Positions 1,047 to 1,748 of a DNA stretch of 43,205 nucleotides are shown piece by piece. The position numbers were made by a program, and so were the translations under genes. The stretch lies in the NCBI RefSeq assembly GCF_030400225.1, contig NZ_VJYB01000009.1, positions 1 to 43,205 of the forward strand. Reading direction: 5' to 3'. The DNA is from Lactobacillus sp. UCMA15818. Its GTDB lineage: Bacteria; Bacillota; Bacilli; Lactobacillales; Lactobacillaceae. The notes under the pieces were generated by a model. It searched no databases, was not told the DNA's origin, and saw only the letters and a program-made list of their open reading frames with translations. Numbering within the stretch: position 1 is the first letter of the stretch; each line of letters begins with the position of its first letter.

Positions 1047-1055
1047 TGTTATACT
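1047..1055 (+). promoter_or_regulatory. Extended -10 promoter for the efp leader/efp
   Basis: TGTTATACT is an extended -10 element (TG-N-TATACT). No good -35 is visible at the usual distance. It would start transcription near 1062, about 32 bases before the leader ORF and 130 bases before efp, so the leader would lie in the efp transcript. Confidence 0.55.
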
Positions 1056-1093
1056 GAAAGTTGAACATAAAAAAATAATTGGTGGAAATAATA

Positions 1094-1141
1094 ATGACTC
1101 ATCGTGGTTTCGCTCTATCACTCGCACCACCCCTTGCTTAG
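1094..1141 (+). CDS. Putative 15-residue Pro-Pro leader peptide upstream of efp
   Basis: The short ORF reads MTHRGFALSLAPPLA and stops 49 bases before the efp start. A GGTGG ribosome binding site lies 8 bases upstream of its ATG. The Pro-Pro codons (CCA CCC) near its end are the kind of motif on which ribosomes stall without EF-P, and the downstream gene is EF-P. The bases ACCCCTT (1129-1135), spanning these codons, are exactly complementary to AAGGGGT (1177-1183), the efp ribosome binding site. CCACC (1127-1131) can also pair with the leader's own GGTGG (1081-1085). The translation and pairings are seen directly. A regulatory role is inferred. Chance occurrence of a 15-codon ORF is possible. 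Confidence 0.5.
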   Translation: MTHRGFALSLAPPLA

Positions 1142-1190
1142 TTAGCAATTTATAGATTTATAATACAAAAAATAAAAAGGGGTTACACAA

Positions 1191-1748
1191 ATGATTGAAG
1201 CAATTGAATTAAAAGTTGGAATGATTTTTGAAAAAAATGGTAAACTCATCAAGGTACTCGAAACTAACCATCACAAACCTGGCAAGGGTAATACAGTTAT
1301 GCAGATGAAGCTGAACGATATTCGTTCCGGCTCAATTGTTCAGACTACTATGCGTCCTACAGAAAAAGTTGACCTAGCAATCGTTGATAAGAAGAAGGCT
1401 CAATTCTTATATAAGCAAGATGATATCATCTTCTTTATGGATCTAGACACATATGAACAATATGAACTACCCGCTCAACTAATTGAAGCAGAAAGTAAGT
1501 ATTTAATTCCCGACTTACAAGTTCAACTAAACTTTTGCAATAATGAATTAATCGGAATTGATTTACCAACAACTGTTGAAATGACAGTTACTGAAACCGA
1601 ACCAACTATTAAGGGTGCTACGGCTGCTAGTGGCGGAAAACCTGCAACAATGGACACAGGACTTATTGTCGTTGTTCCCGATTTTATCAAAAATGGTGAA
1701 AAATTAGTTATCAACACTGGAAATGGAACCTATAAGCAGAGAGCTTAG
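1191..1748 (+). CDS. efp: Elongation factor P
   Basis: EF-P binds between the P and E sites of the ribosome and speeds peptide-bond formation at consecutive prolines. The 185-residue protein has the normal family length. The N-terminal KOW-like domain carries the loop HHKPGKGNT (about residues 27-35), with the conserved lysine that is modified in many bacteria. The middle OB domain is followed by the C-terminal OB domain signature GGKPATMDTGLIVVVPDFI. The N-terminal domain (TVMQMKLNDIRSG) is rather different from the commonest form (FVRxKLxNL), so it may be one of two EF-P paralogues, as I recall for some lactobacilli. The ATG follows a strong AAAGGGG site 8 bases upstream. See the Pro-Pro leader ORF just before it. 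Confidence 0.95.
   Translation: MIEAIELKVGMIFEKNGKLIKVLETNHHKPGKGNTVMQMKLNDIRSGSIVQTTMRPTEKVDLAIVDKKKAQFLYKQDDIIFFMDLDTYEQYELPAQLIEAESKYLIPDLQVQLNFCNNELIGIDLPTTVEMTVTETEPTIKGATAASGGKPATMDTGLIVVVPDFIKNGEKLVINTGNGTYKQRA

Follow-up and report, generated by a model that had tools for sequence, protein, structure and literature searches.

The window analyzed here is a stretch of 43,205 nucleotides from Lactobacillus sp. UCMA15818 (contig NZ_VJYB01000009.1), in which an elongation factor P gene (efp, encoding 185 aa) occupies positions 1191..1748 of the plus strand. Over the whole protein its product scored 214.6 bits with TIGR00038 (curated cut-off 185.8) and it was also above the cut-off of NCBIfam NF001810. 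The gene is a divergent second copy. Specifically, the genome holds two efp genes with a mutual identity of 44%, and the type found in the window forms a separate clade (support 0.919) of 123 of the 149 tips in the tree, 9 of these 123 being the top hits in families of the order other than Lactobacillaceae. The other copy (L002, at G000:C1:286486-287040) was called canonical because a reading frame that is aminopeptidase-P-like by its motif lies just upstream, and because it is 50-75% identical to 57 efp loci from samples of the class and the phylum.

A putative promoter, a short leader ORF and two ribosome binding sites (RBS) precede the efp of the window, all on the plus strand. The sequence TATACT at 1050-1055, with TG ahead of it, was read as an extended -10 (TGTTATACT, 1047..1055) that may serve both the leader and efp; TATACT also stands before the leader at a similar distance in loci L003-L006, and the element at 1047..1055 was absent from the output of an automatic promoter scan. 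The leader RBS, GGTGG (1081..1085), is kept as GGTGG or GGTGA in 13 of 13 Liquorilactobacillus loci. The leader ORF (1094..1141), read directly from its ATG at 1094 to its TAG at 1141, encodes the peptide MTHRGFALSLAPPLA, which conservation and amino-acid selection mark as a candidate EF-P-sensing arrest peptide. Within it, the stretch under selection, GFALSLAPP (nine codons, 1106..1132), ends in the Pro-Pro codons CCA CCC (1127..1132), the proposed stall site. These are overlapped by ACCCCTT (1129..1135), the putative strand that sequesters the efp RBS, AAGGGGT (1177..1183). Leader, RBS, Pro-Pro, both complementary strands and the efp ATG all lie where a first-pass annotation of this DNA had placed them.

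Among predicted genes preceded by 60 nt or more of intergenic DNA, an ORF of 10-45 codons that begins with ATG behind an RBS and contains Pro-Pro was found ahead of one of 21 in the window, namely efp, and ahead of none of 224 in 400 kb of this genome. The DNA pattern for GFALxxxPP has one match in the whole genome and eight in 201 family genomes, all eight directly upstream of efp; the reversed pattern, searched in the same 201 genomes as a control, matched once. Rfam gave no match at its gathering score, either for the window or for 20 efp loci. Elsewhere in the window, a strong palindrome at 1832-1876, between efp and an opposite-strand gene, scored as a minus-strand terminator, and two alike stretches seen by eye (~91-126 and 212-247; GAAAATTTGAG.ACTAAC...AAATTACGAACAT) adjoin a divergent acetyltransferase-like gene.

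Pro-Pro leaders before efp in Lactobacillaceae

Window-type efp genes were present in 135 of 397 Lactobacillaceae genomes (E <= 1e-56), and 114 of these 135 loci were examined, with 21 of the 135 genomes left out. Curated Pro-Pro leaders were found at 53 of the 114 loci, distributed over 6 of 13 genera, and none was recognized at 61. All 13 examined loci of Liquorilactobacillus (g1) with a window-type efp carry a leader (examples are MTYRVFALSLAPPLFLINNP, MTRCVFELSLAPPFLF, MLHFGFALPLPPPSELF, MLILGFALSLAPPRP... and MAHRGFALSLAPPSTL); a 14th genome of this genus, G013, is without window-type efp and falls outside the 13. Leaders were also present at 3/3 loci in g22, 7/7 in g23, 18/24 in g12, 5/10 in g5 and 7/19 in g54, and at none in g6 (16 loci), g15 (7), g50 (7), g13 (3), g43 (3), g9 (1) and g48 (1). 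The first-pass annotation had looked to the ORF and its prolines in relatives for support, and both prolines are indeed kept in near and distant ones. The leaders were sorted into five sequence families, namely A (GFALSLAPP and relatives, 23 leaders), B (ALVMPLPPP and relatives, 14), C (KKFALPP and relatives, 7), D (IFSIPP and SVLTVPP, 5), and E (RALPPPW and RVLPPPW, 4). These families are defined by motifs that were themselves derived from the leaders being sorted, and L053 was included manually, which makes 53 a curated count.

A uniform criterion (RBS, ATG, 10-45 codons and Pro-Pro) recovered a leader at 45 of the 114 window-type loci; by its RBS and ATG it retained 45 of the 53 curated leaders, the eight that fail being mostly of family C (also L042 and L048). 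The same criterion found nothing at 35 canonical efp loci or at 57 class and phylum efp loci, and a single ORF among 25 canonical efp loci of g12 (L196), which ends before the likely promoter; the sets of 35 and 25 overlap by one gene (L171 = L207). When the RBS was dropped from the criterion, the counts were 54/114 for window-type, 1/35 for canonical and 1/57 for class and phylum loci. Under a loose rule (any start, RBS optional), a Pro-Pro ORF was seen before canonical efp in 3 of 35 cases (L171, L175, and L185). The Pro-Pro ORFs before canonical efp in g12 (L207, L208, and L196) were discounted, since each ends before a TTGATATAG element that we read as a promoter.

Genomes with both efp types account for 95 of the 114 window-type loci, and all 53 leaders are among those 95. 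At the other 19 loci (16 in g6 and 3 in g13) the window type is the only efp found, and leaders number 0 of 19. These counts are suggestive of a tie between the leader and the status of efp as a second copy, the 19 single-efp loci spanning just two genera.

Other arrangements were also observed upstream of efp. At 4 of the 10 loci of g5 (L100, L101, L108, and L130), the place of the Pro-Pro leader is taken by an RBS-preceded ORF that starts with MSPG (MSPGPARLVNEVVSS, MSPGPGARSLNEVNRN, MSPGARSFNEGSCK, and MSPGARSLNEGSFK) and lies 73-80 nt before efp; with Pro-Gly by the start, these ORFs may be another EF-P-sensitive leader. The family C leaders of g54 (L082, L084, L097, L114, L119, L123, and L127) appear to begin at or beside the mRNA 5' end and are mostly without an RBS, a TATACT/TATAAT-like -10 ending 7 nt before the ATG in six of the seven and 6 nt before it in the seventh. 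In g6 (L085, L087, L089, L092, L116, L120, L121, L107, and L110) there is a long 5' region (~120 nt before efp) with partly common words (GAACGAAGCC and GTTCA), and the Pro-Pro leader is absent. A tRNA-like or folded RNA before the efp of g6 was considered and rejected, as no tRNA was detected in 14 loci and no consensus fold in nine sequences.

Selection on the leader peptide

Ratios of pN/pS were obtained for 46 of the 53 leaders, with L056, L061, L078, and the four family E leaders left out. For the nine codons that end in Pro-Pro, the nine clades gave 0.15, 0.00, 0.08, 0.00, 0.15, 0.06, 0.46, 0.12, and 0.11, that is, 0.00-0.15 in eight clades and 0.46 in the ninth, from sums that run over sequence pairs and are hence non-independent. 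After Pro-Pro the ratios were 0.91, 1.24, 0.88, 1.01, 1.15, 1.29, 0.94, and 0.76 in eight of the nine clades, the family D clade having too few codons there. In the window's own clade of six leaders, the ratio was 0.15 up to Pro-Pro versus 0.91 beyond it, and in shifted frames it was at least 0.92 wherever it could be computed. Judged by these ratios, the leader peptide matters through its second proline and not after it, and the contrast recurs across separate families.

The residue that precedes Pro-Pro in the 53 leaders is A (17), P (15), L (11), I (5), S (3), G (1) or V (1), and the one that follows is of many kinds. The last proline falls at residue 12-24 of the leader peptides. In the 46 of 53 leaders that are left when gaps of at least 70 nt are dropped, Pro-Pro lies 56.6 +/- 7.2 nt and the leader stop 36.7 +/- 12.6 nt before the efp ATG; for all 53 leaders the distances are 63.2 +/- 19.2 and 43.6 +/- 22.2 nt, respectively.

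Predicted coupling to the efp ribosome binding site

In the MFE fold of the window locus, the Pro-Pro region, ACCCCTT included, is paired with the efp RBS. The predicted probability that this RBS is unpaired was 0.28 in the free RNA and rose to 0.86 when a ribosome was placed on Pro-Pro and to 0.87 when it was placed on the stop codon of the leader, for a footprint of 30 nt that was the analyst's choice. That a ribosome at the leader stop is also predicted to open the RBS counts against the leader of the window as a gauge of EF-P. Among the 23 leaders of family A, RBS release (a gain above 0.2) was predicted for 15 and a loss above 0.2 for one, and with the footprint at equal distance release was predicted for 9 of 96 controls (2/35 canonical and 7/61 leaderless window-type loci). 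The mean accessibility of the RBS in the free RNA was 0.25 in family A versus 0.47 at canonical and 0.54 at leaderless window-type loci. A ribosome on Pro-Pro was further predicted to release the RBS in 4 of 7 family C and 3 of 5 family D leaders, and in none of family B (0/14) or family E (0/4). The first-pass annotation had the efp RBS sequestered and freed by a ribosome on the Pro codons; as a prediction, this structural part is supported for the window's family A, the window included, and is not seen for families B and E.

It had also warned that a C-rich stretch could face a G-rich RBS by chance. For the window (L001) on its own, the 7-nt complementarity does not reach significance, since 8 synonymous recodings out of 100 match or exceed its pairing with the efp RBS. 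For family A, the RBS-leader pairing of 0.62 in the native sequences dropped to 0.45 with random codons that preserve the peptide (Wilcoxon p = 0.0024). Leader-RBS duplexes were better in native than in swapped combinations for family A (p = 5e-5), for g23 (6.5e-4), and for family C (0.003). No significant difference was obtained for the 13 leaders of Liquorilactobacillus (p = 0.25), its subclade (0.28) and families B (0.56), D (0.20), and E (0.34), the p values of the pairing tests being optimistic because the sequences are related. The expected co-variation between Pro region and RBS is significant in family A, g23, and family C and not inside Liquorilactobacillus.

Two further pairings proposed for the leader are less well supported. 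Among the six close relatives checked, that of GTGGT (1104-1108) with ACCAC (1126-1130) is present in the window alone. Pairing of CCACC, at the Pro codons, with the leader RBS GGTGG averaged 0.23 over the 23 family A leaders in RNA ending at the leader stop, and 0.05 when the whole transcript was folded, and was therefore left out of the model. By eye, and in single-sequence folds, the Pro-Pro codons of three g5 leaders (L055, L018, and L059) form hairpins with adjoining 3' sequence (in L055, ATCCCTCC with GGGAGGAT).

A proposed gauge of EF-P activity

EF-P speeds peptide-bond formation at Pro-Pro. We propose, with a probability of about 0.7, that the short ORF encodes a regulatory arrest peptide which gauges EF-P activity and switches on the spare efp. 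At the level of sequence, the proposal draws on the ORF itself, on the selection of its peptide up to Pro-Pro, on the link to the second and not the canonical efp, and on the predicted RBS release in family A; from these we infer a ribosome stall at Pro-Pro, its relief by EF-P, and a rise in efp output. When active EF-P, mainly from the canonical copy, is plentiful, ribosomes would move quickly through GFALSLAPP, after which the mRNA would refold and the Pro-Pro codons and the next codon would pair with the efp RBS and close it. When EF-P is short, a ribosome stalled at Pro-Pro would occupy the sequestering strand, and the RBS some 43 nt further on would stay accessible, allowing translation of the second efp and a return of EF-P activity. 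In families B and E, stalling would have to be coupled to efp by another route. The first-pass annotation had envisaged plain autoregulation of efp; with a second paralog beside a canonical efp that is without such a leader, this becomes the induction of a spare copy. More broadly, and with slightly less assurance, we consider it probable from sequence comparison that lactobacilli have a self-adjusting EF-P supply, in which a second efp with an activity-measuring Pro-Pro leader backs up the canonical copy. The same solution would then exist in at least five leader families, including apparently leaderless mRNAs, perhaps with repeated origin and perhaps with a Ser-Pro-Gly variant.

The leader might instead be an arrest peptide that senses something besides EF-P (a drug, a metabolite or elongation stress in general) and whose stall is insensitive to EF-P, as in the RAPP class; we regard this as unlikely. 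Strong selection on the context before Pro-Pro is what arrest peptides display, and the RAPP-like QAPP is found in 3 of the 53 leaders, these being 3 of the 7 of g23, the leader of the window having LAPP. An EF-P-insensitive arrest is possible because an LPPP arrest peptide from Planctomycetota is able to stall B. subtilis in vivo in the presence of EF-P (PMC10987492). On the other hand, the motif QAPP also speaks for the gauge of EF-P, as stalling of B. subtilis ribosomes by an arrest peptide of this type was efficient in vitro but weaker in vivo, a difference that its authors say may reflect missing EF-P in vitro (PMC10987492). Moreover, it is efp itself that is regulated, Pro-Pro is the element that stays invariant, the leaders stand before the second efp rather than the canonical copy, and RAPP, RGPP, HAPP or HGPP occur in none of the 53 leaders. 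A secretion monitor is likewise unlikely, because leader peptides of 12-24 residues are too short to leave the exit tunnel.

The two or three adjacent Pro codons of each leader would also suit a proline-starvation attenuator in which they sense uncharged Pro-tRNA. This is very improbable, however, since seven more upstream codons are under amino-acid selection, efp is not a proline-synthesis gene, and all four Pro codons are in use across the leaders, which speaks against a sensor of one Pro-tRNA. Hardly credible is a chance or structural feature, be it a C-rich stretch opposite a G-rich RBS or an ORF that serves solely for translational coupling. Although the complementarity in the window alone and the pairing test within the genus are not significant, such a feature is hard to reconcile with amino-acid selection that stops at Pro-Pro in nine clades and with the near absence of such leaders in the controls, and a gap of 5 to 118 nt between leader stop and efp is unlike coupling.

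Leader-peptide control and EF-P-responsive leaders are already known. In the open-licence literature, we found no description of a leader before efp, of its autoregulation or of its control by a Pro-Pro leader of its own. Sieber and colleagues noted that some lactobacilli have two efp copies, of which one is perhaps constitutive and the second regulated by translational need (PMC11611912). If true, our reading would answer this speculation (PMC11611912) at the level of translation. It would also place a general elongation factor under feedback via its own substrate motif, and would provide naturally occurring EF-P activity reporters, along with a set of natural sequences for stalling at Pro-Pro in their selected upstream context.

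The proposed mechanism resembles several known systems. When cat and erm genes are controlled by translation attenuation, it is a ribosome halted within a leader ORF that exposes a hidden downstream RBS; there the stall is caused by a drug to which the gene confers resistance, whereas here Pro-Pro and low EF-P are the proposed cause. In animals, a uORF of AZIN1 with PPW is read out via eIF5A. It shares with the mechanism proposed here a uORF Pro-Pro stall, sensed there through the EF-P homologue, but it belongs to eukaryotic polyamine control and does not control the factor's own gene. The RAPP-like and LPPP arrest peptides before secA, secDF, yidC, and other genes are also uORFs ahead of a regulated gene, with Ala-Pro-Pro, Gln-Ala-Pro-Pro or Leu-Pro-Pro-Pro near the C terminus; as far as the available portions of these sources go, they mainly monitor protein localisation, many are refractory to EF-P, and efp is not named as a regulated gene (PMC10987492, PMC7897499, PMC12992588). 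The efp leaders are short, stand before efp and are without the Arg or His of RAPP and HAPP. The short proline-codon leader ORFs mgtL and mgtP of Salmonella make the downstream gene responsive to EF-P, and loss of EF-P raises the downstream mRNA via these ORFs (PMC5299641, PMC6460261). Their target is Mg2+ transport and their readout the mRNA level, whereas the leaders of Lactobacillaceae have efp itself as their target, would act at translation initiation, and carry adjacent prolines in a selected context. The proposed sign of the efp response agrees with that reported for mgtP and mgtL.
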